Below, piece by piece: positions 15,021 to 28,426 of a stretch of 41,558 bases of DNA. The stretch covers positions 1 to 41,558 of the IMG/VR virus record IMGVR_UViG_3300037153_000079; one strand, written 5' to 3'. The notes below the pieces were generated by a model. The model ran no database searches. It was not told the origin of the DNA and saw nothing but the letters and a program-made list of their open reading frames with translations. The position numbers and the translations under genes are program-made. Every line of letters begins with the position of its first letter. Within the stretch, counting starts at the first letter, position 1. This stretch comes from a virus.

Positions 15021-16792
15021 TGTGCCGCCTTCCTCATCTGGCGTCGAAGGTCGAGCACGTTCCGGTTCACGTCGAACTTGTCGTCGTTCACCTTCTTGAT
15101 ATATTCCTCGACCGTTCCACGCGACCGATACACCAGCGCAGTTACCTGCTTCGTGCTGGACGCATCGACCGCGCGATCCGTGACCTGGATCTGATCATCC
15201 GGATTCCAAGTCTCGTCGAGGACGTGGACATCTGACGCCCGACTCAAAGTGATCCCCACCCCGGCCGCAGCCGTGACGAGGATCGCAACCCGAACCTTGC
15301 CGCCCTGGAAGTCGGCCATGATCCGGTTTCGCTCTTTCTGCGTGACCTTCCCCGAGATGATCTCTGTGTTTATGCCGTAACGTCGTAGGTAGTTGTAGAT
15401 CATCTCGGCGGTCTCGCGGAACTGGCTAGCGATGATGGCTTGGTCGTCGCCGTCGGGGTCGTCCGGATCGATGCCCCGCTCTGCCAGGTTCTCTAGCAGA
15501 GCCGGGATCTTGCCGGACTCCTCGGTGGCCTTGACCTTCAGTTCCATGTGACCCGTCTCTTCATCTAGGCTCAGAGCCTCGATCTTGCACATGTGGTTGG
15601 CGAACTGCTTCAACCGTGTGTACTCAGCGAGGATCGAAGTGGCGGAGAGATGGTACTCATCGATGCGGATCTCAGCCATCTCATGGAACTCGTAGTACTG
15701 CCTGGATTGCTTCTCTGTCATCGGACACCAGACATCGACCCAGAGCGTCTCGGGCAACTGCGGCAAGACTTCAGTCCGCAGCCGTCGGATAGCATGGGGA
15801 GCGAGAGACTCGTAGAACGCATCCTCGCGCCCCGGGATGACCTTGCCGATCACCTTGTGATTACCCCAGACGTTATCAATCACCAGCCACTGAGCCGCCC
15901 ACCTCCACTTCGAGGTGTACTTCTGCGGCTCAAGCCAGTGAAGAGCGCCCCAGAGCTTAACCGGCTTGCCTCCCATCGGAGTGCCGCTCAAGGCAAACTT
16001 ACGCTTCGCCTTGACCTTACTCGCCTCCTTGGGAAAGCGGTTCTTGACCTCTGGTAGGCCGGTCTTGTGGAACTCATCGATAGTGAACGAGTTCCATTCC
16101 TTCACCTTCGGGAAGTTCCCGCGTCGGATCATGTCCGCCGTCGTAACGAACCAAAACGGCTTATCGTGTTCACGACACTCCTCGATCTGATCTTCGGCAG
16201 CAATCTTCTCTGCTTGGCTCAGATCTCCGGAGAATGTCACGACCGTATGATTAGTCCATCGCTCGATCTCCATGCGCCAAACGCTGTCGAGTGTAGACTT
16301 CGGCGCGACGACGAGGTGCGGCCCGTTCTCCAAGTCAGCCTCGAAGATCGCGCCAATCACTTCAGTCGTTTTGCCGAGCCTCGGCTCCAACAAGTTCAGG
16401 CAGTTGGTCGTAGCCATGAACATCACGTCGGCCCGCTGGTAGGGACGGAACCACTTGGCGAGCTTCGGGAGCTTCTTCGCAAGCTTCATCCCTTTCAGCG
16501 AAGCGTCGTCCGCTGTAGAGAGAGACTTGAGGGTGTTCTCCTTCCGCACTGCCGTCCGACCCCATTCGGTCAGTGCCGCCCCGAGTTGGAGATCGTTGCC
16601 GAACTCCTCTCGAAGACGACGCATGACGACGAGGTCGAGCGGCAGCGTCCATAGTGGCCCACCGTTGTCCTTGTTAACGAAGCGAGCACCGAGGGGCTTG
16701 AGGCGGTTCATTGCTGCGACCGCCTCAGGCGTGTAGTGGAAGTGAACCGCACAGCGGTCGCCTCCCTCAGTGAGTTCAGCAAACGCCTTCAT
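15017..16792 (-). CDS. SNF2-type DNA helicase/translocase
   Basis: A 591-residue superfamily 2 helicase. Motif I is in LLEPRLGKTTEVIGAI (about 130), motif II is IDEFHKTG (about 237, DEFH form), motif III is LSGTPMGG (about 267). The C-terminal RecA lobe carries TAAAGVGITLSRASDVHVLD (motif V) and WNPDDQIQVTDRA (motif VI, about 535, with the final Arg). This arrangement is that of SNF2/SWI-like phage DNA remodellers. The ATG overlaps the upstream stop (ATGA). Likely role: translocation on dsDNA in replication restart or recombination. Confidence 0.85.
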   Translation of the reverse strand: MKAFAELTEGGDRCAVHFHYTPEAVAAMNRLKPLGARFVNKDNGGPLWTLPLDLVVMRRLREEFGNDLQLGAALTEWGRTAVRKENTLKSLSTADDASLKGMKLAKKLPKLAKWFRPYQRADVMFMATTNCLNLLEPRLGKTTEVIGAIFEADLENGPHLVVAPKSTLDSVWRMEIERWTNHTVVTFSGDLSQAEKIAAEDQIEECREHDKPFWFVTTADMIRRGNFPKVKEWNSFTIDEFHKTGLPEVKNRFPKEASKVKAKRKFALSGTPMGGKPVKLWGALHWLEPQKYTSKWRWAAQWLVIDNVWGNHKVIGKVIPGREDAFYESLAPHAIRRLRTEVLPQLPETLWVDVWCPMTEKQSRQYYEFHEMAEIRIDEYHLSATSILAEYTRLKQFANHMCKIEALSLDEETGHMELKVKATEESGKIPALLENLAERGIDPDDPDGDDQAIIASQFRETAEMIYNYLRRYGINTEIISGKVTQKERNRIMADFQGGKVRVAILVTAAAGVGITLSRASDVHVLDETWNPDDQIQVTDRAVDASSTKQVTALVYRSRGTVEEYIKKVNDDKFDVNRNVLDLRRQMRKAAQ

Positions 16793-17067
16793 TTCCTTGA
16801 TCCCCGTTTCCTGCCTCGATAGACAGCGTAGACAATGCAGCCGCGCGCAGCGAACTGCCAGACGTGATCCGGCTCAGGAATATGTACCTGCCGTTGGGTG
16901 AGGTTGCTCTGGATCTTGTTCGCTTCCCGCGGATTCTTCGCGGTGTGCACCAAGGCCCAGACACCGGGTCTTTCTAGAAGTGGTAAGAGGCGATTCGCCC
17001 AAGGCTTTCTGAAGATCCTGGGCGGTATGGTTTCGCCTACGAACTCCACCTCCTGGTTTAGTGACAT
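16789..17067 (-). CDS. Hypothetical protein, about 92 aa
   Basis: The start ATG 17065-17067 follows AAAGGAGGGTACT, the standard leader of this region; an upstream frame extension would run through the tRNA-like element and is rejected. The protein (MSLNQEVEFVGETIPPRIFR ... LVHTAKNPREANKIQSNLTQ) has an alternating helix/strand pattern and ends basic (RGRKRGSRK). It is coupled to the helicase gene by ATGA. No family recognised. Confidence 0.65.
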   Translation of the reverse strand: MSLNQEVEFVGETIPPRIFRKPWANRLLPLLERPGVWALVHTAKNPREANKIQSNLTQRQVHIPEPDHVWQFAARGCIVYAVYRGRKRGSRK

Positions 17068-17090
17068 AGTACCCTCCTTTGTTACGGCAT

Positions 17091-17159
17091 GGAGCGGGAA
17101 GGGATCGAACCTTCCTGGCATATGGATAGTGTCAGATCCACGCCATCACCAGCCGCTCC
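17091..17159 (-). tRNA. tRNA-like element without a normal D arm (possible anticodon GAC)
   Basis: Minus strand, 69 nt. The acceptor stem GGAGCGG/CCGCTCC is perfect, and the T arm is canonical (GAAGG, loop TTCGATC, CCTTC). The anticodon-like hairpin TGGAT-CTGACACT-ATCCA has an 8-base loop; GAC (Val) is the likely triplet. Only 12 bases link the acceptor to this hairpin, too few for a D arm. The hairpin extends further (TGGC/GCCA). No CCA is encoded. It lies in the leader just ahead of a ribosome-binding site. Either an aberrant tRNA, a decayed one, or a tRNA mimic. Confidence 0.55.
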
Positions 17160-17167
17160 TTGTTGGG

Positions 17168-17242
17168 GGCGTAGGCGGAGGGTACCAGTCTCATACCTAC
17201 GCCCCCTCATTGCGGGCTGCGCGTCCGGCTAAGAACTGCGCC
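17168..17242 (-). other. Two hairpins between the zinc-ribbon gene and the tRNA-like element
   Basis: GGGGGCGTAGG and CCTACGCCCCC form an 11-bp perfect stem around a 20-base loop that includes GGTACC. A second pair GCGGGC/GCCCGC lies nearer the upstream stop. There is no T-run, so RNA processing or folding is more likely than termination. Confidence 0.5.
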
Positions 17243-17252
17243 CGCAAGCTTT

Positions 17253-17513: not shown

Positions 17514-17572
17514 TCGGCACCCTCCTCTGGATGAATTCCGAGCCACCCGCCGTTACGCGGGCGACTCGCAAC

Positions 17573-18372: not shown

Positions 18373-18400
18373 TGCTCCCTCCTAACGGATGGGGTTACTC

Positions 18401-18440
18401 GGTACAGCAGTAGTATACTGTACCGGCAACACGGCGTCTA
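18401..18440 (-). promoter_or_regulatory. Promoter with operator-like inverted repeat
   Basis: Minus strand TAGACG (18435-18440), 17 bases, TATACT (18412-18417). The -10 lies between two 7-bp complementary arms, GGTACAG (18401-18407) and CTGTACC (18418-18424). The layout is that of a repressor site covering a promoter. It drives the basic HTH-like protein. Confidence 0.55.
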
Positions 18441-18508
18441 CCCCGTTTCCCGGGATAAACGAGAGGTGGTTGGCCTCCGGGCAAGGCCGCTTCCGGCCCG
18501 CCCGCAGG

Positions 18509-19597: not shown

Positions 19598-19660
19598 GGT
19601 ACCCTCCTTTGTTGGAGCAGGATTACTCCGGGCTAGGCCATTGCTGGCCCGCCCGCAGTA
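19598..19660 (-). promoter_or_regulatory. Intergenic module 1: two hairpins plus SD leader
   Basis: Transcript order: upstream stop, strong hairpin (GGGC..GGCCA / TGGCC..GCCC, 19630-19654), weaker hairpin (GGAG/CTCC, 19614-19629), then AAAGGAGGGTACC (19598-19610) and ATG. First of a series with the same architecture but different stem sequence. Confidence 0.65.
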
Positions 19661-19978
19661 TTACTGCTTCGCTGTTACATAGGCGAGAGCCTCATAAGAG
19701 GCAATCGACCAGTCCTCGCCGTCGTCTTCCAACGACGAGACGATGGCATACCACCGACCCTTGAAGCCGACGGCATCGTTGAGGTCGCGTTGAGTCCAGG
19801 CGTGTTCACCTACCGGATCCCACGACTCAGCAAGCGAGTCGTGTGTCCAGAGAACCTGAACCCTTCTCGTGATGCCCTTGTTGATCTCCATATCCCGGAG
19901 GTAGAGAACATCTCCGGGCTCGGGCTTCGGCAGGGTATCGCCGGGCATGAACGGGTTCTTGGTATCATCCTCGAACAT
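19661..19978 (-). CDS. Hypothetical protein, 105 aa
   Basis: An acidic protein with a compact beta pattern: PEPGDVLYLRDMEINKGITR, VQVLWTHDSLAESWDPVGEH, FKGRWYAIVSSLEDDGEDW. It overlaps the upstream gene by 14 bases (the start lies inside its last codons). No family recognised. Confidence 0.65.
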   Translation of the reverse strand: MFEDDTKNPFMPGDTLPKPEPGDVLYLRDMEINKGITRRVQVLWTHDSLAESWDPVGEHAWTQRDLNDAVGFKGRWYAIVSSLEDDGEDWSIASYEALAYVTAKQ

Positions 19979-20237
19979 CGGTATGCTCCGGAAGCCCGTC
20001 GAACAGGTCGGGATCTACGTCGATGAATACAGCTGCCGGCTCCATCGTGCCCTTTTGCTTACAGAGGATCTCACAGCGGAACTCTTCCCCATCGTTGTGT
20101 GGGAAGGCCCATCGGATGAGATGGATTCCAACCGGGTCGAGAGTCTTCATGAACTCGGGGGTAAGCGAGCGGTTGTAGCTCCGCTTTACCGCGAGTCTGT
20201 TGGCCTCGACCAGCAGTTCGGTCGTGATGACCTTCAT
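19965..20237 (-). CDS. Hypothetical protein, 90 aa
   Basis: Starts at ATG 20235-20237 after AGGAAGCATC, overlapping the upstream stop (ATGA). Sequence: MKVITTELLVEANRLAVKRS, then TLDPVGIHLIRWAFPHNDGE and AAVFIDVDPDLFDGLPEH. Mixed alpha/beta, acidic at the end. A longer reading in the same frame runs antiparallel through other genes and is not supported. Function unknown. Confidence 0.65.
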   Translation of the reverse strand: MKVITTELLVEANRLAVKRSYNRSLTPEFMKTLDPVGIHLIRWAFPHNDGEEFRCEILCKQKGTMEPAAVFIDVDPDLFDGLPEHTDVRG

Positions 20238-20440
20238 GATGCTTCCTGGATGAGCTTCTGAAGCCGATCTTGTAGCTTCTTCGTCTCTTCGATGAGCATC
20301 TCGAAGTGCTCCTTGAGCCACGCGATCTCCTGCGGGGTCATCTCGTCTAACCGCTCCGGATGCTCCACGAGATCCTTGAGGGTCGCGGTCATCTCCGCGA
20401 TGGCCTCTTTCGCTCGCTGGATCTCTTCGTGAGTAGCCAT
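20234..20440 (-). CDS. Small coiled-coil protein, 68 aa
   Basis: Almost wholly helical and charged: MATHEEIQRAKEAIAEMTAT, LKDLVEHPERLDEMTPQEIA and LIEETKKLQDRLQKLIQEAS, the last with heptad-like Leu/Ile spacing. The TGATG overlap with the upstream gene and the ATGA with the next indicate a coupled set of three. Function unknown. Confidence 0.65.
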   Translation of the reverse strand: MATHEEIQRAKEAIAEMTATLKDLVEHPERLDEMTPQEIAWLKEHFEMLIEETKKLQDRLQKLIQEAS

Positions 20441-20763
20441 CAGTCTCTCCCGAAGCCGAGCGGAAGATCCATTCCTTCCGCCATCTCGACCGCGTTGACG
20501 ACCTCGCCCCAACTCTCCAGGGGCGAGTCCAAGTAGGACTCGATGTCCAACTCGATGACCTCCGTGAGCTTCTCGCCGGTGGCTCCAGCCTGGCCGCCCT
20601 CGTTGAGGTTGTCGTACCACTCTTCGTATTCGTACTGGAGATCGCGCAGATGCGCGAGTCCATTGCTGAGGTCGGCTTCCAACTGCTGGATAGCCTCCAT
20701 CGCGGCCTGACATTCAGCCACGGCTTCGGCCCAGCGTGAAGATCTGCTCTTCTGCTTTGCCAT
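20440..20763 (-). CDS. Hypothetical helical acidic protein, 107 aa
   Basis: Basic start (MAKQKSRSSRWAEAVAECQA) and then a long acidic helical region (AIQQLEADLSNGLAHLRDLQ, YEYEEWYDNLNEGG, LTEVIELDIESYLD). Leader AAAGGAGGGTACC upstream. A coiled-coil partner of the following 68-aa protein is possible from the matching features. No family recognised. Confidence 0.65.
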   Translation of the reverse strand: MAKQKSRSSRWAEAVAECQAAMEAIQQLEADLSNGLAHLRDLQYEYEEWYDNLNEGGQAGATGEKLTEVIELDIESYLDSPLESWGEVVNAVEMAEGMDLPLGFGRD

Positions 20764-20838
20764 CTGGTACCCTCCTTTCGGTAACGGACATTAGCGTCCA
20801 GACCGGGCCGCATCACTGGCCCGACCTGCGCGCTACCG
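20764..20838 (-). promoter_or_regulatory. Intergenic module 2: two hairpins plus SD leader
   Basis: Strong hairpin CGGGCC/GGCCCG (20804-20823, 8-base loop), weaker GGAC/GTCC (20786-20799), leader AAAGGAGGGTACC at 20766-20778 on the minus strand. Confidence 0.6.
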
Positions 20839-21270
20839 TCAGTTCTTGATACGGTAGAGTCGTGTGTTCCCGCGCTTGGCGACGACTTCGATCATTCCCT
20901 CGTCTTCCAGGAAGTTCAGCGAGTTGAGCACGTAGCTCCTGCTGTACTTATGCTCGAAGTGAGTGTTGACCGACTTCGTAACCTGCCCCGAGTCCATCGG
21001 CTTCGACGCTGCCGCTAGCACTTCGAGGCAAGCGTCGTCGAGCTTCGGATTGTGAGGCTCGTTGCGAGCGTTCATCGGCAAGCCCGGCTTGCCCGACTTA
21101 CGCGGCTTGCTGTTAGACCGGCTCAAGTAGCCGTCGATCTTCGCAAGCGTCGTGTCGATCTCCTTGAGGCGAGCCGTCAATACAGCCCGCTCTTCGCGTA
21201 GCTGCTCACGACCCTTACGGAATTGATCTTCGAATTCCGCGATCTTCGCCTCGATGTCGAGATCGCTCAT
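20839..21270 (-). CDS. Coiled-coil plus winged-helix-like DNA-binding protein
   Basis: A 143-residue protein. Residues 1-50 form a coiled coil (IAEFEDQFRKGREQLREERA, TARLKEIDTTLAKIDGYL). A basic linker follows, and the C-terminal part (DDACLEVLAAASKPMDSGQV, TKSVNTHFEHKYSRSYVLNS, LNFLEDEGMIEVVAKRGNTR) reads as a winged helix with recognition helix and wing. Likely a dimeric DNA-binding regulator. Leader AAAGGAGGGTACC; hairpin module 3 lies between it and the upstream gene. Confidence 0.7.
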   Translation of the reverse strand: MSDLDIEAKIAEFEDQFRKGREQLREERAVLTARLKEIDTTLAKIDGYLSRSNSKPRKSGKPGLPMNARNEPHNPKLDDACLEVLAAASKPMDSGQVTKSVNTHFEHKYSRSYVLNSLNFLEDEGMIEVVAKRGNTRLYRIKN

Positions 21271-21340
21271 AGGTACCCTCCTTTCGTTGGTTGTGCGGTG
21301 TACCAGACCGCCCCGCGTTACTGGGGCGACCTGCTACATC
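21271..21340 (-). promoter_or_regulatory. Intergenic module 3: overlapping hairpins plus SD leader
   Basis: Strong hairpin CGCCCC/GGGGCG (21309-21328); an alternative GCGGT/ACCGC stem (21295-21311) overlaps it by three bases, so the two cannot both form fully. Leader AAAGGAGGGTACC at 21272-21284. Confidence 0.6.
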
Positions 21341-22303
21341 TCACTTCCCAAGGCTCTTCGTGCTTCCGAGCCCCTTGCCGGGGTTCACCGAGATGTTGGC
21401 CTGATTGCCAGCCCTCTGCCCACCGCTGAACGCGGCGGAGTCGAACCGACGAGTGTCGGTCGAGAGAGCGCGCGACCGCCTGTTGGTCGGCTGGCCGAAC
21501 ATCTCATCCATGAACTCCGCGTTCCGCTTCCGCTGATCGACCAGGACAAGCTCCATCCCGGTACCGACAGCGGTTTCGGTGTGCTGCCGCATCTCGGCGA
21601 GACGACCGCCAACCCGCGATGCGAACCCATAGGCGAAGTTCCGCCTGTAGGTCTTGAAGTGGGCGTAGTTCTGCTCAATGCCCATCTTCTTGCAGTAGCT
21701 CCGGTAGGCCCGCGTCATCTTGTCCGCCGCGGGCTTACCGGCCGGCATGTCGGTGTCGTAGCCAGCCGCCTGCATCACCTTGGCGACTTCGAGCCAGCCC
21801 CATCCCGCCTCGCGGAACATCCGCAGGTTCTCGTGATAGGACTTGCTCTTGTCCACCCTCGGATGCGTCGCTTCGATCAGCTGCGTCATGAGAGACGTGA
21901 ACAGCAGGGTCAGGTAGCCGAGATCAGCTTCCGTTCCGATGACCGGAACGACGTAGCCCTTGTACTCCTGCTTCTCGCCGCTGAAGTGCTGCTTGTGGTA
22001 GACGATGGAGCAGTTCGTGTGCCGGGCCACATCGACGAACAGCGACCAAAGAGAGTCGCAGATCTCAGGGAACGGGCCGTTGCTGAACGCCCAATCGTAG
22101 TCGAAGTCGCGGATGACCGGCTGACGCTGGTCAACGCGCTTACCCGTCTGGGCAAGCTCCCACAACTCGATCTGGTAGCGAGCCATCAGCTCATCGGCCT
22201 TCTCCATGAAGACCTGTCGTTCGCCTTCGAACTCGGTCTGCTCGGCCTTGGCCAGCAGTCCGGAGATCTTCCGAAGAAGATCATCCTTCTGGTGTGAAGA
22301 CAC
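21341..22303 (-). CDS. DUF2786-domain protein
   Basis: A 320-residue protein with an N-terminal DUF2786 pattern: HQKDDLLRKISGLLAKAEQT, EFEGERQVFMEKADELMARY, the two-helix signature of that family. The rest is helical with aromatic clusters (FVDVARHTNCSIVYHKQHF), then YKGYVVPVIGTEADLGYLTL and a basic C-terminus. GTG 22301-22303 is chosen because AAAGGAGGGGTATCA precedes it; the ATG upstream crosses a hairpin. DUF2786 proteins occur in phages and plasmids with no settled function. Confidence 0.78.
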   Translation of the reverse strand: MSSHQKDDLLRKISGLLAKAEQTEFEGERQVFMEKADELMARYQIELWELAQTGKRVDQRQPVIRDFDYDWAFSNGPFPEICDSLWSLFVDVARHTNCSIVYHKQHFSGEKQEYKGYVVPVIGTEADLGYLTLLFTSLMTQLIEATHPRVDKSKSYHENLRMFREAGWGWLEVAKVMQAAGYDTDMPAGKPAADKMTRAYRSYCKKMGIEQNYAHFKTYRRNFAYGFASRVGGRLAEMRQHTETAVGTGMELVLVDQRKRNAEFMDEMFGQPTNRRSRALSTDTRRFDSAAFSGGQRAGNQANISVNPGKGLGSTKSLGK

Positions 22304-22382
22304 TGATACCCCTCCTTTGGGTATGGGCACATACCTACTGTATGCACTCCCGCCTCTCCCCAATCGGAGAGGCGGCAGGGCA
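22304..22382 (-). promoter_or_regulatory. Intergenic module 4: two hairpins plus SD leader
   Basis: Strong 10-bp perfect hairpin CCGCCTCTCC/GGAGAGGCGG (22350-22375) and a weaker 6-bp GGTATG/CATACC (22320-22335). The leader is the variant AAAGGAGGGGTATC. Confidence 0.68.
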
Positions 22383-22658
22383 CTAGCGCAGTTCCTCAAA
22401 CGGAGGCTCTGCTTTTCCGTTCCCTTGCTTACCTTCGATGTCGTTCAGCCGCTTCTGTAAGAAGAGGATGGCTGAACGAGCATCTTCCAGCGTACCAAGT
22501 ATCGGTTCGGCTTGCTTCCAGGCGTAGTTCTCATCTACGCTGGCCATACATTGCTCGCCAATATACTTGATGGCCTTATCGATCATGTCGAGGTCGCTTT
22601 GTACTGAGGGGCTTATCGGCCCCACATCCCAGTACGGATCGTCCTCGTGTTCAGTCAT
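22383..22658 (-). CDS. Hypothetical acidic protein, 91 aa
   Basis: Acidic N-terminus (MTEHEDDPYWDVGPISPSVQ) and helical remainder (DLDMIDKAIKYIGEQCMASV, ILGTLEDARSAILFLQKRLN). It follows the 68-aa gene with ATGA overlap. No family recognised. Confidence 0.65.
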   Translation of the reverse strand: MTEHEDDPYWDVGPISPSVQSDLDMIDKAIKYIGEQCMASVDENYAWKQAEPILGTLEDARSAILFLQKRLNDIEGKQGNGKAEPPFEELR

Positions 22659-22861
22659 GCCTCTTCCACATCCGAGACATCCCAGCCGCTGTCGCTGACG
22701 TTGCTTGCGTCATTGACATCGACACCGAACTCGAAGGCGTGCTGACCAGTGACTAGAGCGTTCTCGACATCGAACTTGGCGGACTCTTCATCTTCAGCCC
22801 ACACCTCGAACGTTGCCTGGATCGTCGTAGTCGCCGTCACTTTGAACTGCTTGTCGCTCAT
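22655..22861 (-). CDS. Hypothetical beta-rich small protein, 68 aa
   Basis: MSDKQFKVTATTTIQATFEV, WAEDEESAKFDVENALVTG and a C-terminal acidic tail (SGWDVSDVEEA). The pattern of a beta strand followed by A-x-x-x-A-x-x-D helix resembles small phage DUF-type (DpnD/PcfM-like) domains, but the match is too short for a firm claim. It overlaps its upstream neighbour by four bases (ATGA). Confidence 0.62.
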   Translation of the reverse strand: MSDKQFKVTATTTIQATFEVWAEDEESAKFDVENALVTGQHAFEFGVDVNDASNVSDSGWDVSDVEEA

Positions 22862-23034
22862 GACTTCGCCTTCATCAGGACATCGCTGGCGATGGACATC
22901 TCTTCCGCGAGAGTAGAACGCTCTACATCAGAGACTTCCTGATACTCGGCCTTGAGGTGGCCGATGTAGTGCTCCAACGCTCGCTTGATGACAGCGGCTT
23001 CGTTGAACGACATCTTCCAGTTCACTGTAACCAT
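22858..23034 (-). CDS. Small helical protein, 58 aa
   Basis: Start ATG 23032-23034 after AAAGGAGGGTACCA, stop TGA 22858-22860 overlapping the next ATG. Sequence: MVTVNWKMSFNEAAVIKRAL, EHYIGHLKAEYQEVSDVERS and MSIASDVLMKAKS. Helical and charged, with no recognised family. It is clearly a gene from its leader and overlaps. Confidence 0.68.
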   Translation of the reverse strand: MVTVNWKMSFNEAAVIKRALEHYIGHLKAEYQEVSDVERSTLAEEMSIASDVLMKAKS

Positions 23035-23111
23035 TGGTACCCTCCTTTCAGTGCTTATGGAACGCTTATGCGCTCCCGCCCCGGATCCAGCCGGGGCGGC
23101 AGAGCATCAGC
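23035..23111 (-). promoter_or_regulatory. Intergenic module 5: hairpin plus SD leader
   Basis: Strong 9-bp perfect hairpin CCGCCCCGG/CCGGGGCGG (23076-23099, 6-base loop). Direct repeats GCTTATG..GCTTATGCG lie between it and the leader AAAGGAGGGTACC (23036-23048). Confidence 0.65.
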
Positions 23112-23363
23112 TCATACGGGGAGACCCGCTTCCTTGAGGAACGTCTCGTATTGAGCGAGGACGTTCTTCTTCGTGCGATGGCGACACTCGACTCCGCAGG
23201 ACGCCATGATGGCGATGGCCTGCTTCATCGGGCTTCCATGCCAGCGCGGGCCGTTCGGCCGGTCAACCTCCATCTTGAGCTTACGATGGACTTGCATCAA
23301 CGCGAAGGCGTTGATCTGGTCGCGGGTGTCGAGGACGAATCCTCCTTCATGCCAACTTGGCAT
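23112..23363 (-). CDS. Hypothetical protein, 83 aa
   Basis: Begins MPSWHEGGFVLDTRDQINAF, then ALMQVHRKLKMEVDRPNGPR and a basic helical tail with two Cys (IMASCGVECRHRTKKN). The Arg/Lys-rich C-terminal half could bind nucleic acid. The start at 23361-23363 follows AAAGGAGGGTACCGC. No family recognised. Confidence 0.65.
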   Translation of the reverse strand: MPSWHEGGFVLDTRDQINAFALMQVHRKLKMEVDRPNGPRWHGSPMKQAIAIMASCGVECRHRTKKNVLAQYETFLKEAGLPV

Positions 23364-23439
23364 GCGGTACCCTCCTTTCGTTACGTGCTGTCGTCCGACA
23401 ACACGAGGCCATCCCCTCGCGGGGGATGACTTCCTGCTG
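23364..23439 (-). promoter_or_regulatory. Intergenic module 6: two hairpins plus SD leader
   Basis: Strong 7-bp hairpin CATCCCC/GGGGATG (23410-23428) and a second pair around TGTCG/CGACA (23385-23404). Leader AAAGGAGGGTACC at 23366-23378. Confidence 0.62.
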
Positions 23440-23622
23440 TCAAGCGAGGTAATACTCGACCATCGGGATGATGTAATCCCCGGCGGTATCAAGCTCCTCA
23501 TCCTTGATGAGGCCGTGCGAGTACGCCGAGTCGATCACCGACATAGCGATGTCGTTCACGTTCAGATCGAGTTCGTTCTCTGCGAAGACCTTGATGGTCT
23601 CCTCGATGATTTCCTCGATCAT
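23440..23622 (-). CDS. Hypothetical protein, 60 aa
   Basis: ATG 23620-23622 overlaps the upstream stop (ATGA). MIEEIIEETIKVFAENELDL, NVNDIAMSVIDSAYSHGLIK, DEELDTAGDYIIPMVEYYLA: acidic, helical, ending in aromatic residues. No family recognised; a longer frame reading upstream is a shadow of the neighbour. Confidence 0.62.
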   Translation of the reverse strand: MIEEIIEETIKVFAENELDLNVNDIAMSVIDSAYSHGLIKDEELDTAGDYIIPMVEYYLA

Positions 23623-23930
23623 GAGGAGATGCGCTTCCGAAGAAGCTCCTCCATGATCTTGATGACGACAACCTTCGTCGCCAGGTCGGTGTCCTTCGCC
23701 CAACCGCCGTTGTTCTCGGCTCCGTAGACCGGGCCCAAGGCGCGGAAGATGACCGTCGCCTCGTCGGTCTTGAGGATGTCCATCGCGTGCGCGTGCGACT
23801 GCAACTCCTGGAACTTGAAGTGCTCCTCGAAGTTGATGGTCGTCGAGTCGTTGAGAGACTCGACCTTGTTCTTCGGCAGCGTCTCGATGAGCGGCCGAAG
23901 CTCGTCGATGGATCTGGAGATCCTGTTCAT
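23619..23930 (-). CDS. Hypothetical protein, 103 aa
   Basis: MNRISRSIDELRPLIETLPK, then KVESLNDSTTINFEEHFKFQ, ELQSHAHAMDILKTDEATVI and a C-terminal helix ending KIMEELLRKRISS. Alpha/beta, soluble. Start with the AAAGGAGGGTACC leader. No family recognised. Confidence 0.65.
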   Translation of the reverse strand: MNRISRSIDELRPLIETLPKNKVESLNDSTTINFEEHFKFQELQSHAHAMDILKTDEATVIFRALGPVYGAENNGGWAKDTDLATKVVVIKIMEELLRKRISS

Positions 23931-24017
23931 CTGGTACCCTCCTTTAAGGGCTTAACTTGTTACCGTACTCTGGATTGAGCACGAGGAGGCCAACCGTCGC
24001 CGGTTGGCACCTCCTGC
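23931..24017 (-). promoter_or_regulatory. Intergenic module 7: two hairpins plus SD leader
   Basis: Strong hairpin GCCAACCG/CGGTTGGC with a 4-base loop, extended by GAGG/CCTC (23983-24013). A second pair is CGTACTC/GAGCACG. Leader at 23933-23945. Confidence 0.65.
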
Positions 24018-24266
24018 TCAGCTTTTGAGCCAGTCCCGCAGTTGCTTCGGGCCTGTGACAAACTCGGCAAAGCGTACCCGGATGACATCTCCCGGCTTGA
24101 CCTCGTCGCCATGTTCGTCGTTATCAACGAACTCGAACTCGGCCAAGTCAGCGAGATGAAGAACGCCGTCGTAGTCTATCATGAGAGCGGCGTCGTTCTT
24201 CATCATCATGATGATGCCCTCGGTCTTCACCTCGACAAGCGAGACAACAACGCGCTTATTATTCAT
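24018..24266 (-). CDS. Hypothetical protein, 82 aa
   Basis: ATG 24264-24266 is chosen; the frame upstream shadows the 50-aa gene. MNNKRVVVSLVEVKTEGIIM, MMKNDAALMIDYDGVLHLAD, LAEFEFVDNDEHGDEVKPGD, ending in a basic helix. Mainly beta, acidic centre. It overlaps the upstream stop by a few bases. No family recognised. Confidence 0.62.
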   Translation of the reverse strand: MNNKRVVVSLVEVKTEGIIMMMKNDAALMIDYDGVLHLADLAEFEFVDNDEHGDEVKPGDVIRVRFAEFVTGPKQLRDWLKS

Positions 24267-24411
24267 CGCCGTCATCCCATCCGTCTTCGTTGGCCATCCT
24301 GGCCCAAACGGCCTCTTTGATGGCCTGATCGGATCCGTACTTGGATCCGTCGCAATCCCCGGCCTCATGACCGCAGCAGGGGAAGTCTTCACACGCGTAC
24401 ATCTTACTCAC
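24259..24411 (-). CDS. Small Cys-rich protein, 50 aa
   Basis: GTG start (24409-24411) overlapping the upstream TGA and preceded by AAAGGAAT. The first part has four Cys and one His (CEDFPCCGHEAGDC), a likely zinc site, then a helix (SKYGSDQAIKEAVWARMANE) and an acidic tail (DGWDDGDE). Small zinc-binding protein of unknown function. Confidence 0.6.
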   Translation of the reverse strand: MSKMYACEDFPCCGHEAGDCDGSKYGSDQAIKEAVWARMANEDGWDDGDE

Positions 24412-24611
24412 ATTCCTTTCGATAGAGCGTTGTCGATGAGCTGGCCGAACTTTTGCCGCGTCTTCACGCTTACGATGAATCCGAAGTCCTCAAGAGCCTC
24501 GTCCATCACGTTGAGTTCGAGACATCCGAGAACTGCGTCATCGAGGATCTGATCGCGGAAGCTGTCGGCCCGAGGATTGTTAAGCCAATCCTCGACCTCT
24601 GCCCAAGACAT
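24408..24611 (-). CDS. Hypothetical protein, 67 aa
   Basis: Start MSWAEVEDWLNNPRADSFRD, then a helical part (QILDDAVLGCLELNVMDEAL) and C-terminal SVKTRQKFGQLIDNALSKGM. Leader AAGGAGGGTACC. Helical, charged; no family recognised. Confidence 0.62.
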   Translation of the reverse strand: MSWAEVEDWLNNPRADSFRDQILDDAVLGCLELNVMDEALEDFGFIVSVKTRQKFGQLIDNALSKGM

Positions 24612-24686
24612 TTTGGTACCCTCCTTATGTAGCTTACGGTAGCCGATGCTACCGGGATGCCTCCGTGAGGAGGGCACCCGCTAGCT
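24612..24686 (-). promoter_or_regulatory. Intergenic module 8: two hairpins plus SD leader
   Basis: Second hairpin 7-bp CGGTAGC/GCTACCG with loop CGAT (24637-24654). Hairpin near the upstream stop CCTCC/GGAGG (24659-24675). Leader AAGGAGGGTACC. Confidence 0.64.
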
Positions 24687-25034
24687 TCAACTATCGATCC
24701 TTTGGTCGGCCGGAATGCCGAGATCGATGCTGTAGTCGCCCGGCAACAGGCCGATGTCCTTGAGGTAGACGGCAAGGTTGATGACCGTCCGGTAGATCTC
24801 CTCGATGTTGTCCATCGCCCCTGCTTGATCGGGCTTGGTAAAGCGATGTCTCGGGCCATGCCAGAACTCCGAGACTTCCTCCGGAACATCGGCGAAAGGC
24901 GGAAGCTCATTCCACATGTTGTGGCCGACGACGCGCCACAAGACGCATTCGCGGTCATTAGTCGAGCCTTGCGGAACGTCGTAGCGCATCTCGTACTTTG
25001 TTCCGGTATCCGGGTCAGTCCAGATCTGGGACAT
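24687..25034 (-). CDS. Hypothetical protein, 115 aa
   Basis: MSQIWTDPDTGTKYEMRYDV, an aromatic middle (ECVLWRVVGHNMWNELPPFA) and a helical end (IEEIYRTVINLAVYLKDIGL). Overlaps the stop of the 32-aa membrane gene (TAATG). Likely cytoplasmic; no family recognised. Confidence 0.64.
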   Translation of the reverse strand: MSQIWTDPDTGTKYEMRYDVPQGSTNDRECVLWRVVGHNMWNELPPFADVPEEVSEFWHGPRHRFTKPDQAGAMDNIEEIYRTVINLAVYLKDIGLLPGDYSIDLGIPADQRIDS

Positions 25035-25132
25035 TACTTCTTCTCCATATCGAAGAAGGCGATGACGGGAATCGCCATCACGCCGAGGCAAAGCAGGACG
25101 ACCAGGACAACGAGGATCGTGTCCATGATCAT
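25034..25132 (-). CDS. Tiny single-pass membrane protein, 32 aa
   Basis: ATG 25130-25132, stop TAA 25034-25036. The sequence MIMDTILVVLVVLLCLGVMA continues IPVIAFFDMEKK, one transmembrane helix with a short charged C-terminus. It has the AAAGGAGGGTAC leader at a 5-base spacing and hairpin module 9 upstream. It could act as a host-membrane modulator or an accessory lysis peptide. Confidence 0.6.
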   Translation of the reverse strand: MIMDTILVVLVVLLCLGVMAIPVIAFFDMEKK

Positions 25133-25204
25133 TACAGTACCCTCCTTTTGGTTTTGTTTCCGTACCGATTGGTACGAAGCTCCTCCCGATTGAGGAGCTT
25201 CCTA
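25133..25204 (-). promoter_or_regulatory. Intergenic module 9: two perfect hairpins plus SD leader
   Basis: Strong 10-bp perfect hairpin GAAGCTCCTC/GAGGAGCTTC (25176-25201) and a 6-bp second hairpin CGTACC/GGTACG with loop GATT (25161-25176). The clearest example of the architecture; the leader is AAGGAGGGTACTG. Confidence 0.72.
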
Positions 25205-25624
25205 TCAACCAGCGTTGGCGTTCGTCTCGGCGGTCAAGACGTACTTCTCAAAGTACGCCCATGTCGCGCTGTTGACTTCCGTCAAGCGCTCTTCCCCGGC
25301 GACCGCAAACCATTCCGGCCCGCCATTGATGAGATCGACGACAGCCCAAGCGACCGCCCGGGCAACCGAGGCTTCGGTTGTCCGGTTCCACAACTCGTCG
25401 TAGCGGTCGGGCTGGTTGAAGTAGATCTCGTCGTGCTTGTCCCCGAGGAGATTGTAGATGTAGTCTCCGTTCCCGGCGTCATCCTGCGACCACAAGACGA
25501 GATCCCACATCTTCGGGATCGCCTCGTTCATGTACGAGTTCTTGGTCTTGTGCTCATCCGAGAACATCGGGGAGTTGTCTATGAGCTTGATGAACTCGTA
25601 GACGAGATGGAAGTTCACATCCAT
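25205..25624 (-). CDS. Hypothetical protein, 139 aa
   Basis: A mainly helical protein (MDVNFHLVYEFIKLIDNSPM ... EASVARAVAWAVVDLINGGP) with conserved-looking aromatics. The central DAGNGDYIYNLLGDKHDEIY segment is acidic. No family recognised; the single largest unknown in the small-gene array after the DUF2786 protein. Confidence 0.68.
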   Translation of the reverse strand: MDVNFHLVYEFIKLIDNSPMFSDEHKTKNSYMNEAIPKMWDLVLWSQDDAGNGDYIYNLLGDKHDEIYFNQPDRYDELWNRTTEASVARAVAWAVVDLINGGPEWFAVAGEERLTEVNSATWAYFEKYVLTAETNANAG

Positions 25625-25706
25625 TTTGGTACCCTCCTTGTAGGGCTTATCGTATCCGGTTGAATACGCGGAGGGGCCAAGCTCTCCACTTGGCCCTACC
25701 GCCTGC
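25625..25706 (-). promoter_or_regulatory. Intergenic module 10: two hairpins plus SD leader
   Basis: Strong 8-bp GGGCCAAG/CTTGGCCC (25674-25696) and second 5-bp CGTAT/ATACG (25651-25668). Leader AAGGAGGGTACC. Confidence 0.68.
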
Positions 25707-25910
25707 TCAACTCAGAGCCGGAACGCCGTAGATGAGCACGGCGCGTACATTCGGCCCAAGCATCTTACACATAATGCTTGCTTCGGCCGCCATCTCGCGC
25801 GGACTCATGCTTTCGACGTTGCTTCGGGCGACAACCTTCCCGAAGAACCCGTACATCTCATCGTAGTCGATGTACTCGATCCCGACAATATCGAGGTCGT
25901 CGTTCGTCAT
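25707..25910 (-). CDS. Hypothetical protein, 67 aa
   Basis: MTNDDLDIVGIEYIDYDEMY then GFFGKVVARSNVESMSPREM and a C-terminal helix (AAEASIMCKMLGPNVRAVLI). Acidic N-terminus, mixed alpha/beta. Leader AAGGAGGGTACC. No family recognised. Confidence 0.62.
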   Translation of the reverse strand: MTNDDLDIVGIEYIDYDEMYGFFGKVVARSNVESMSPREMAAEASIMCKMLGPNVRAVLIYGVPALS

Positions 25911-25966
25911 CGGTACCCTCCTTGTTGGTGAAGCACAAGGCTCCCCCTAGTTGGGGAGCTTTCTAC
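25911..25966 (-). promoter_or_regulatory. Intergenic module 11: hairpin plus SD leader
   Basis: Strong 7-bp GCTCCCC/GGGGAGC (25940-25959), extended by AA/TT around a bulge. Second pair is only TTGT/ACAA. Leader AAGGAGGGTACC. Confidence 0.62.
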
Positions 25967-26221
25967 TTACCAACTCCGAACCGACTTGCGCTCGGTCGCG
26001 GCCTTCAACTCGTCCGACCACTTGTAGAGGTCGGAGACGTTGACGCGATCCGCCATCGGGATGAAGCCGAGCCGGACTTCCTTGAACGGCTCCTCCTTGG
26101 CAGCCGAGATAATCCGGTTGAACTCGAACATCGCGTCCTTCTTGGAGGCCGTCTCCATGACGATCTCAAAGACGCCCTTTGTCGTCTCGGCCTTAACCTC
26201 GACAATCCAAAAGCCCTTCAT
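25967..26221 (-). CDS. Hypothetical protein, 84 aa
   Basis: MKGFWIVEVKAETTKGVFEI, then VMETASKKDAMFEFNRIISA and FIPMADRVNVSDLYKWSDEL, a beta-alpha alternation. Basic ending (ATERKSVRSW). Leader AAGGAGGGTACG. No family recognised. Confidence 0.64.
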   Translation of the reverse strand: MKGFWIVEVKAETTKGVFEIVMETASKKDAMFEFNRIISAAKEEPFKEVRLGFIPMADRVNVSDLYKWSDELKAATERKSVRSW

Positions 26222-26302
26222 CGTACCCTCCTTGTTTGGCCGTAGCGTTTGACTACGAGGAGCGCGGGCTCCTTTTGGAGCCCGACCTCCTAGCCAACGC
26301 GG
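26222..26302 (-). promoter_or_regulatory. Intergenic module 12: two hairpins plus SD leader
   Basis: Strong 8-bp CGGGCTCC/GGAGCCCG with loop TTTT, extended by GAGG/CCTC (26257-26289). Second 5-bp CGTAG/CTACG (26241-26257). Leader AAGGAGGGTAC. Confidence 0.68.
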
Positions 26303-26689: not shown

Positions 26690-26820
26690 GGTTTCCTTTC
26701 GGCTTGATTCCGCGGGGCGTTTGTCCGCCCCGTTCGGGAGCCTTTTTTGGCTCCCTAACGGGACGGGCCATTTTCGATGGCCCGCCCCCGCCGTAAGGAG
26801 GGGGTACCATTATATATTTT
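26690..26820 (-). promoter_or_regulatory. Structured leader of the leftward array with TATAAT box and three hairpins
   Basis: On the minus strand a TATAAT (26809-26814) in an AT-rich tract is followed by three hairpins before the first ATG: 26760-26788 (GGGACGGGCCA/TGGCCCGCCCC, one mismatch), 26736-26755 (GGGAGCC/GGCTCCC, six-base homopolymer loop) and 26713-26732 (CGGGGCG/CGCCCCG). No T-run follows them. No convincing -35 hexamer is seen. Confidence 0.55.
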
Positions 26821-27269
26821 TCAAACTCCGATGGAATCGTACCGCGTTCGCCTCTCGGCCACATCGTCGCCGGACTCCCGGAGCGACGGACGGTTTTACA
26901 TGTCCTCCTCCTCGCTAGCGCGAGGGATCGCCTCGATGACTCGCTCGTCGTACGCGCTCTAGAGGGCCGGTAGGCGCGCGGGGCCGGATCGGGGCTACGG
27001 GCGGGCCGAAGCCCCCTCCCGAGCCCCTCCCGCGCGGGAGAGGGCCGTAGAGCGCGCCGTACGGGCGGGCCGCGGCCGGTCTCCCGGGCCGCGTCTCCGC
27101 TTACCTAACGCGCGGGCCTCCGATGTTTCGCTAGAGCTTGTCGAGGTACCCGCGCGGCTAAGATGTGCGCGACTCCCCTTCGGGCGGTTGCCCTTCGGGG
27201 AGCTACGTTCCGGGTTTTCAAGGTACGGCGACCCCGACCTCGGGAGGTCGGGTCTCCCTAACCCTAATT
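26821..27269. other. GC-rich non-coding belt with hairpins
   Basis: Very GC-rich DNA (GGGCGGGCC repeats, CCCCTTCGGG and GACCTCGGGAGGTC palindromes). A 43-codon plus frame (26832-26963) and a short minus tail (coding SAYDERVIEAIPRASEEEDM, near 26897-26959) look protein-like but lack a supported start, so no gene is called. Confidence 0.5.
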
Positions 27270-27548
27270 TTGGTTCGGTTGTTTCGCGTCCCCCTTTAGG
27301 GGGATCTTTAGGTTACTTCTTAGGACTGTTGCTAGCACGATTTTCGAGTTATACGTGTTTGTGTTGGTCGATTTATTTGCCTGATTTCCCTGTGTGAAAT
27401 GGTGATGTTTATGTGTTGGGCGTTTTGTAAATGGGTTACTGTCTGTTGATTTGGTGCGGGTGGATGTTTTGGGATGCCGGATGGGGGGAAAAGCGGGCAT
27501 TTTTGAGATGGAGTTTTTGTGTCGAAAATGTATTATCCCAAGCGTTTT

Positions 27549-28140
27549 TGGAACATAAAATCACCCGTTTTTGTAGCTTAATTTTGTATTGATTTGACAT
27601 GTCCACCGCCCCGGGCGTTTCGCTCGAATTTTTGGAAATTCGCCATGTAGGCTTATGTTTGAGTTGAAAATACTTGTCGAAAGTGAGAAAAGTCTTGATT
27701 TGACTTGGCGCTTGGGCTGGGGCTTGAGCCTTTTTTGACTTGAATTTGAACATGCTTTTGCGACTGAATTTGCGACTGACTTGACATGTTTTTTGGGCTG
27801 GTTTTTGGTTCCCAAAATCAACTCAAAACACCTTGATCTTGAGCATGATCTTGAGCATGATCTTGTGTGGTGATTTGTATTGTAAAAACACACTGTTTAC
27901 CAAGCTTGGATTGCTCATGCTAAACCGCATTAGTTGTACACTGCTCTGAGCAGTGACTTGATTTGTGAATTGCGCTTGTAAATGCGCCTGCGACTGCCGT
28001 GGTGTACCCAAATCATTTCACGCGAAATCACTCTAGATGTAGGCTTATAGCGTGAAATGACTTGGTGCTCGCAAGCTTGACTTATGCTTTGGAAATTTTT
28101 GAAACCCGCTTTGTAGGCTTAGCTTTGAGTTGACTTGTAT
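27549..28140 (+). repeat. Four degenerate TGTAGGCTTA repeats
   Basis: Core TGTAGGCTTA (or TGTAGCTTA) occurs at 27572, 27646, 28038 and 28122, each followed by a TTGA or TGAAATGA then ACTTG, and preceded by an A/T stretch with a CGCC/CGCG-like piece. Two copies share TTTGAGTTGA after the core. The spacing is uneven. Confidence 0.6.
27835..27865 (+). repeat. 12-bp tandem repeat GATCTTGAGCAT
   Basis: Two complete copies (27835-27846, 27847-27858) and a 7-base third copy. Typical of an origin-type iteron or a replication slippage product. Confidence 0.72.
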
Positions 28141-28145
28141 CCCCC

Positions 28146-28426
28146 GAATGGGGGACATTCCAAAGCAAGGTCAGCCCAACGCAAGAGCAAGGGCCAAATC
28201 AACCCAAAGAGTAGGCCACCCGGCCTACCCCTAAAGGGGTAGGCTCGGAGACCTACCCCGAACGGGGTAGGCCATGGGTCTCCGCGCGGCCTACCCCGTT
28301 CGAGGGATTCGCGCCGAAGACAGGTCTAGTCCCCCGTTCGGGGGAGGCGACGGCGCGCCGCGGCGACGATAACGGGAGTAGCCCCGCGGCGAGGATCGCG
28401 GGGAATCGACCGAAAGGAGGCGGACG
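28146..28426. other. Palindrome belt with CCTACCCC boxes before the 28.4-kb gene
   Basis: CCTACCCC-TAAA-GGGGTAGG (28224-28243) and CCTACCCC-GAAC-GGGGTAGG (28252-28271) are perfect 8-bp palindromes, and a third CCTACCCC is at 28290. Similar CCCCC-GTTC/GAAT-GGGGG palindromes flank them (28141-28155, 28330-28345). Likely operators, or transcript hairpins. Ends with AAAGGAGG before GTG 28427. Confidence 0.6.

Follow-up and report, generated by a model that had tools for sequence, protein, structure and literature searches.

We analysed a stretch of DNA of 41,558 nucleotides from a soil phage (IMG/VR virus record IMGVR_UViG_3300037153_000079; hereafter the window), which is part of a tailed-phage contig, with a focus on an array of leftward genes separated by hairpin-bearing intergenic modules, and on a hairpin encoded just downstream of this array, the loop of which carries the complement of the leader that precedes the array genes. 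The leftward genes of the window include those for thymidylate synthase, a DnaE-type polymerase, a primase, a Sak4-like protein and a helicase, and the rightward genes include those for terminase, portal, endolysin and head protease; of ten proteins scanned from the module region, the majority belonged to no known family.

Hairpin modules and the shared leader of the gene array

A sequence-only reading of this DNA had described twelve leftward intergenic modules on the minus strand at 26302-19598, each with a strong hairpin at the stop codon, a usually weaker second hairpin and a AAGGAGGGTACC-type leader before the start codon. We found all twelve (listed below; z is the fold energy against dinucleotide shuffles), together with the three stems it had quoted, in M4 (25204-25133), M9 (22382-22304) and M3 (25706-25625). 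The shared architecture held except that M2 has no second hairpin and that those of M10-M12 are weak, and the range held for these twelve modules, whereas further modules lie outside it, at 18508-18373, 17560-17514 and 17252-17068.

26222-26302, minus strand: M1, hairpins and leader AAGGAGGGTACG, before the gene at 26221-25967 (z -4.1)
25911-25966, minus strand: M2, single hairpin and leader, before the gene at 25910-25707 (z -1.6)
25625-25706, minus strand: M3, two hairpins and leader, stem GGGCCAAG/CTTGGCCC, before the gene at 25624-25205 (z -4.3)
25133-25204, minus strand: M4, two hairpins and TACT leader, stem GAAGCTCCTC/GAGGAGCTTC, before the gene at 25132-25034 (z -5.1)
24612-24686, minus strand: M5, hairpins and leader, before the gene at 24611-24408 (z -4.2)
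23931-24017, minus strand: M6, long hairpin and leader, before the gene at 23930-23619 (z -5.1)
23364-23439, minus strand: M7, hairpin, competing second hairpin and leader, before the gene at 23363-23112 (z -2.4)
23035-23111, minus strand: M8, two competing hairpins and leader, before the gene at 23034-22858 (z -2.5)
22304-22382, minus strand: M9, hairpin CCGCCTCTCC/GGAGAGGCGG and variant leader AAGGAGGGGTATC, before the GTG gene at 22303-21341 (z -3.9)
21271-21340, minus strand: M10, hairpin and leader, before the gene at 21270-20839 (z -2.4)
20764-20838, minus strand: M11, hairpin and leader, before the gene at 20763-20440 (z -2.5)
19598-19660, minus strand: M12, hairpin and leader, before the gene at 19597-19058 (z -4.3)
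18373-18508, minus strand: further module, two long hairpins and TTAGGAGGGAGCA, before the ATG of the gene at 18372-17869 (z -5.6)
17514-17560, minus strand: further module, hairpin and GAGGAGGGTGCC, before the GTG gene at 17513-17253
17068-17252, minus strand: further module, a stretch that includes the antisense hairpin at 17206-17165

The leader AAGGAGGGTACC has nine exact copies in the window, all on the minus strand, and variants in three other modules (TACG at 26222, TACT at 25136 and the GGTATC-type AAGGAGGGGTATC at M9). Allowing up to two mismatches gave 16 matches versus 2.3 expected, a number reached by no shuffle. The leaders lie a few bases 5' of start codons and in one orientation.

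Relatives of the window were gathered by DnaE and leader searches of viral contigs, which yielded a family of phages, all of them uncultured; 152 leader sites with upstream intergenic sequence were extracted from this family. Contigs covering the region carried ~10 to 21 leader copies on a single strand only, and the pattern read backward gave almost no matches. Among isolated phages, neither the module region nor the gene adjoining the antisense hairpin had a match, and the antisense element itself gave weak chance matches in one search and none in another. The window DnaE is ~42% identical to that of Microbacterium phages, and comparison with one of them, Krampus, revealed CCTCC-type hairpin loops that are not paired with any repeated leader. 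A search for the host in genome contigs returned no useful relative.

Fold energies of the twelve modules were well below those of shuffled sequence (mean z -3.5, range -1.6 to -5.1), whereas 118 control windows of 80 nt had a mean z of -0.6. Helices at the stop codon are long and almost uninterrupted. Counted from the first base of the stop codon, the first hairpin begins at a median distance of 11 nt, and its stem has a median of 9 bp (121 parsed modules). In many modules the stop codon is itself part of the outer stem (for example TGAGTA...TACTCA), and the 3' arm of this stem often also builds the second hairpin (TACTC...GAGTA), so that both hairpins cannot form together. When arms were permuted among 77 modules from 13 genomes, the pairing of strand 1 with strand 2 (outer stem, z 8.2) and of strand 2 with strand 3 (second hairpin, z 16.4) was matched in 0 of 5000 permutations. 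A further statistic on the arms of the first hairpin (z = 37.7) was not used, since these arms had been picked as complementary and the value is circular. Stem competition, previously noted for module 3, is thus general, and the view that structure rather than sequence is under selection is supported by the fold energies and by arms that co-vary in relatives while stem sequences differ from module to module.

The modules do not form a standard terminator array, as had been proposed, and neither terminators nor promoters rose above shuffles, apart from one case: on the array strand, 11 of the 12 modules have no T-run, whereas M2 has a weak T-rich tail. Promoter-like sites in the modules were no commoner than in shuffles. 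Strand 3 was complementary to the leader at only ~2 standard deviations above shuffles, a marginal value; we therefore do not claim a classic attenuator, and the suggested attenuation fits weakly at best, as sequestration of the Shine-Dalgarno (SD) sequence. A putative processing or stabilising role of the two hairpins is plausible, and the suggested insertion of gene cassettes is not required to account for the modules. Most likely they are punctuation between cistrons, giving 3' protection to the upstream message and 5' protection or processing to the downstream one, and this is the weaker part of our interpretation. As a separate observation, the window at 27000-28400 is gene-poor and lies between divergent transcription units, with terminator-like plus-strand sites at 27288, 27612, 27710 and 27939.

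An antisense hairpin downstream of the array

The description of the modules was confirmed yet incomplete, as it had overlooked the hairpin at 17206-17165. The pair formed by the leader and this antisense loop is a more important feature than the modules themselves. The elements concerned are as follows.

17165-17206, minus strand: antisense hairpin just downstream of the array, 12-bp stem GGGGGCGTAGGT/GCCTACGCCCCC and loop ATGAGACTGGTACCCTCC
17091-17159, minus strand: tRNA-like acceptor stem and T-arm, GGAGCGG...GGTTCGATCC...CCGCTCC, a possible RNase P signal
16789-17079, minus strand: gene directly after the antisense hairpin with its leader AAGGAGGGTACT, ATG at 17067

The loop core TGGTACCCTCC is the exact complement of the leader GGAGGGTACCA (leaders reading GGAGGGTACC(A)). 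The predicted loop duplex energy in the window averaged -21.9 kcal/mol for 15 leader genes, versus -9.2 kcal/mol for 24 other starts. That the leader has just one exact antisense copy, placed in a hairpin loop, gives a reason for the conservation of its non-ribosomal bases. The element matched no Rfam family.

The same element was present in contigs G001, G003, G005, G007, G008, G014, G016 and G019; G003 and G016 share an identical copy and were counted once, which together with G021 and the window makes nine distinct phages. Each genome has one antisense copy, on the same strand as the array and in a hairpin loop, with a stem of 11-13 bp (longer in G009, G012 and G021), and the hairpin follows the array and precedes the replication genes wherever both are on the contig. 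Alignment of the hairpins revealed an invariant loop core and stems that vary but remain paired. Permuted cores occurred in array-strand hairpin loops in 0 of 7045, 1 of 1511 and 0 of 4965 cases. Leaders perfectly complementary to the loop made up 9/13 in G000, 8/9 in G001, 8/11 in G005, 10/10 in G008, 11/12 in G014, 13/13 in G016 and 14/14 in G019.

The contigs of G030 and G033 stop before the expected position of the hairpin. A partial match at position 57497 of G031, within long open frames, was not counted, and hairpin-pattern matches in L102 and L103 were due to chance. Arrays without the antisense hairpin were seen in L063, L074 and L126-L128 (G031) and in L123 and L129-L134 (G020). In G012, the hairpin stands at the head of an extended stretch (L109, about 2180-2430) that appears to be noncoding and has several more hairpins; this stretch may be a stand-alone RNA.

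We then compared leaders and loops in genomes where the leader differs. The leaders of G021 are GGAGGGTACA and its loop is TGTACCCTCC; G009 has GGAGGGTCA leaders (seven sites with AAGGAGGGT) and a single same-strand hairpin with TGACCCTCC; and in G012 the leaders are of the CAGGGAGGA type, with eight CAGGGAGG sites found along the array strand, and a single hairpin carries TCCTCCCTG. In a duplex matrix, for which one bulged T was omitted from an arm of the G008 fold, leaders paired best with the loop of their own genome in three of the four types. Further contigs with TCA and TACA leaders were searched and gave no new array with a hairpin.

These matched changes bear on whether the modules are merely mRNA punctuation, such as RNase III sites of the T7 kind, combined with a strong shared ribosome-binding site, the antisense hairpin being a decoy or one module that became specialised by chance. 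The long stop-codon helices with their competing second hairpin fit such an account, as does the antisense hairpin of G009 and G021, which occupies the place of a module's first hairpin; however, it leaves unexplained the invariant loop, the matched loop and leader changes in four types, and the conservation of leader bases beyond the SD core, and we judge it quite improbable.

The gene that follows the hairpin discriminates between action in trans and in cis. Its leader in the window, AAGGAGGGTACT, mismatches the loop at the last base, and a TACT leader precedes this gene in 5/5 type-1 genomes versus 1/41 other leaders, a contrast whose probability is only indicative because the genomes are related. 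The SD of this gene is unrelated to the leader beyond the SD core in G007, G008 and G019, where the loop still matches distant leaders exactly, and in G012 it differs from the array leader. A loop serving its own gene alone would predict the opposite, and these mismatches therefore argue for action in trans. That the hairpin acts in cis alone, pairing with the leader of the next downstream gene, is consistent with its position, which is always upstream of a gene, and with the perfect match of that gene's leader in G009 and G021; given the mismatches elsewhere, we consider it very unlikely.

A tRNA-like fold follows the antisense hairpin in 6/9 phages (the window and five relatives) and is supported by compensatory changes, with 92.8% of cells paired and 14 changed on both sides, above all 500 shuffles. 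The other tRNA arms are missing, except for one hairpin in the window copy; ARAGORN called no tRNA, and the fold does not extend to a full cloverleaf with an anticodon arm. Bacterial RNase P cuts minimal substrates that consist of an acceptor stem and T-arm, which makes cleavage just 3' of the antisense hairpin plausible on the predicted fold.

Proposed shut-off of early genes by an antisense RNA

Several features are read directly from the genomes, namely the leader repeats, one antisense copy placed in a hairpin loop, its fixed position, the paired but variable stems and the matched changes. From these features, we propose that a phage-encoded antisense hairpin RNA probably occludes the SD of many early genes, as an RNA counterpart of T4 RegA. 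The early genes of the array would share an RNA address, consisting of the SD and the bases that follow it (GGAGGGTACCA), and the loop of the hairpin RNA, which is encoded on the same strand immediately past the array, would offer an exact complement to this address. Pairing would cover the SD of 10-15 mRNAs together, and translation of the leader genes would be shut off as transcription proceeds to the replication genes. The hairpin would be released from the transcript as an RNA of its own, with RNase P cleavage at the tRNA-like fold as one candidate route, and would act in trans as a repressor.

Mycobacteriophages of cluster K may offer a second case. Their start-associated sequences (SAS) and extended start-associated sequences (ESAS) have been known since 2011, when four K1 phages were noted to hold a lone reversed copy that was left without an explanation (Pope et al. 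2011, PMC3203893). We found the reversed SAS of Anaya in a hairpin loop inside the 385-nt gap between genes 96 and 97, and those of Adephagia, Yunkel11, Peanam and Amelie are arranged likewise; the duplex between loop and SAS was significant in all five, four of which are K1-like, Amelie being the fifth. Late transcription of Adephagia reportedly begins between its genes 92 and 93 (PMC11373665), which is the gap that holds its reversed-SAS hairpin. The literature searched proposed no antisense role for the reversed copy, and the role of SAS was still called unknown in 2024 (PMC11373665). We regard the cluster K evidence as supporting but partial. The surrounding region of Anaya (59689-60069; L072 29690-30070) is conserved and noncoding, with a promoter-like TTTTAGACT, a GGCACAACTGTGCC element and 2-3 strong hairpins; a region of this type is also present in 176 other mycobacteriophage records, and in several phages the anti-SAS loop lies at its end.

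A second reversed copy is present at the head of the array.

26793-26814, minus strand: array head, TATAAT and, immediately after it, GGTACCCCCTCCTTAC, a reversed leader copy with an interruption, conserved in six genomes

In these six genomes GGTACCCCCTCC stands beside a TATAAT-like box and is interrupted by 2-4 bases; the reversed copy matches the leader type in G009 and G012. The array head is a probable early promoter and transcript start, and the reversed copy may be an operator or may lie where the early transcript has its 5' end. Chiefly because of this copy, we keep the explanation that a phage DNA-binding protein recognises the repeat on DNA, like the stoperators of cluster A, with the reversed copies as further sites. 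One-directional repeats near gene starts plus a reversed promoter copy resemble operator or stoperator sets (PMC5712189), and an altered protein specificity would also shift all sites together. However, all genomes in which the reversed copy was detected have it in the loop of a strong hairpin, the stem of which differs between genomes and yet stays paired; the forward copies overlap the SD exactly; the promoter copy is interrupted; and the window proteins that were scanned included no identifiable repressor. Protein recognition of DNA thus appears unlikely. A phage or host protein that binds the leader as RNA, as a true RegA-like factor with the hairpin as its sponge or autoregulatory site, has a precedent in T4 RegA, which represses ~30 early mRNAs at start sites (PMC3014915); yet what the loop holds is the complement of the leader, which could not mimic the protein-bound RNA, and we hold this explanation to be highly improbable.

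Several results weigh against control by an antisense hairpin RNA. No such hairpin was found in the contig sequence of G020 and G031, both of which have long arrays; it may have been lost, may lie beyond the contig or may have given way to another element. G025 has only an imperfect antisense hairpin. Each leader and loop change is a single evolutionary event, and the G021 leaders are an exception in the duplex matrix, the type-1 loop being about equal (-19.1 vs -18.4 kcal/mol). The tRNA-like fold is missing in three of the nine phages and thus cannot be essential. The loop-SAS duplex was not significant in eight other sampled cluster K phages, so that the match is absent from other K subclusters, and SAS is unchanged in those unmatched phages whose genomes were examined. 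Finally, the interrupted reversed copy at the early promoter could point to a role at the DNA level.

Whether such control extends to a general, RNA-only early shut-off in actinobacteriophage-like genomes, in which all early cistrons would share an SD-based address and be silenced together by one hairpin RNA with a complementary loop, we consider evenly balanced. The hairpin RNA would then be made as the next phase of transcription begins, at the end of the array here and in the late leader in cluster K1. With address and loop evolving as a matched pair, related phages would have mutually insulated address systems.

Comparison with known systems

Repeated hairpins between co-oriented genes, as in the modules, also occur in T7, where RNase III sites separate genes of one long transcript; we know of no shared leader or antisense loop in that phage. 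Among phage antisense RNAs, the CI RNA of P4 is of the same type as the C4 RNA of P1 and P7. C4 carries complementary sequence in its loops and covers a ribosome-binding site (PMC12197685). The window hairpin likewise displays the complement of a ribosome-binding site in a loop; unlike C4, which acts on one target operon in immunity, its loop matches ~10 or more separate leaders.

Proteins such as T4 RegA and RegB account for most of what is known about the post-transcriptional shut-off of early phage genes; these two shut off translation of many early mRNAs at start sites, RegB by cleaving at GGAG in SD sequences (PMC3014915). In contrast to these proteins, the agent proposed here would be an RNA hairpin. 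If the proposal is true, one antisense hairpin would need a few dozen nucleotides to achieve shut-off, and evolution could alter its loop and the address jointly. Cluster A stoperators are similarly numerous, asymmetric intergenic sites in one orientation, with one at the early promoter (PMC5712189); they differ in being repressor-bound DNA sites that are not hairpin loops and are not tied to the SD.

The layout also resembles that of SAS and ESAS: SAS is a short asymmetric repeat that contains the SD just before gene starts, in one orientation, and the SAS genes are non-structural and separated by gaps. About half of the SAS have an upstream inverted repeat, and the window array is also hairpin-bearing. 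The 13-bp consensus GGGATAGGAGCCC is absent, however, and the window leader is AAGGAGGGTACC. The ESAS inverted repeats have a fixed consensus, contain promoters and lack support for RNA pairing (PMC3203893, PMC11373665), whereas the window stems vary freely and stay paired, and the modules have no inverted repeats of conserved sequence with a promoter. An antisense role would offer a direct, testable explanation for SAS of cluster K, in phages for which genetic tools exist (M. smegmatis). Antisense control of translation is already known from phages; what would be new, on the sequence features described here, is that a single RNA would match many genes by way of the address they have in common.

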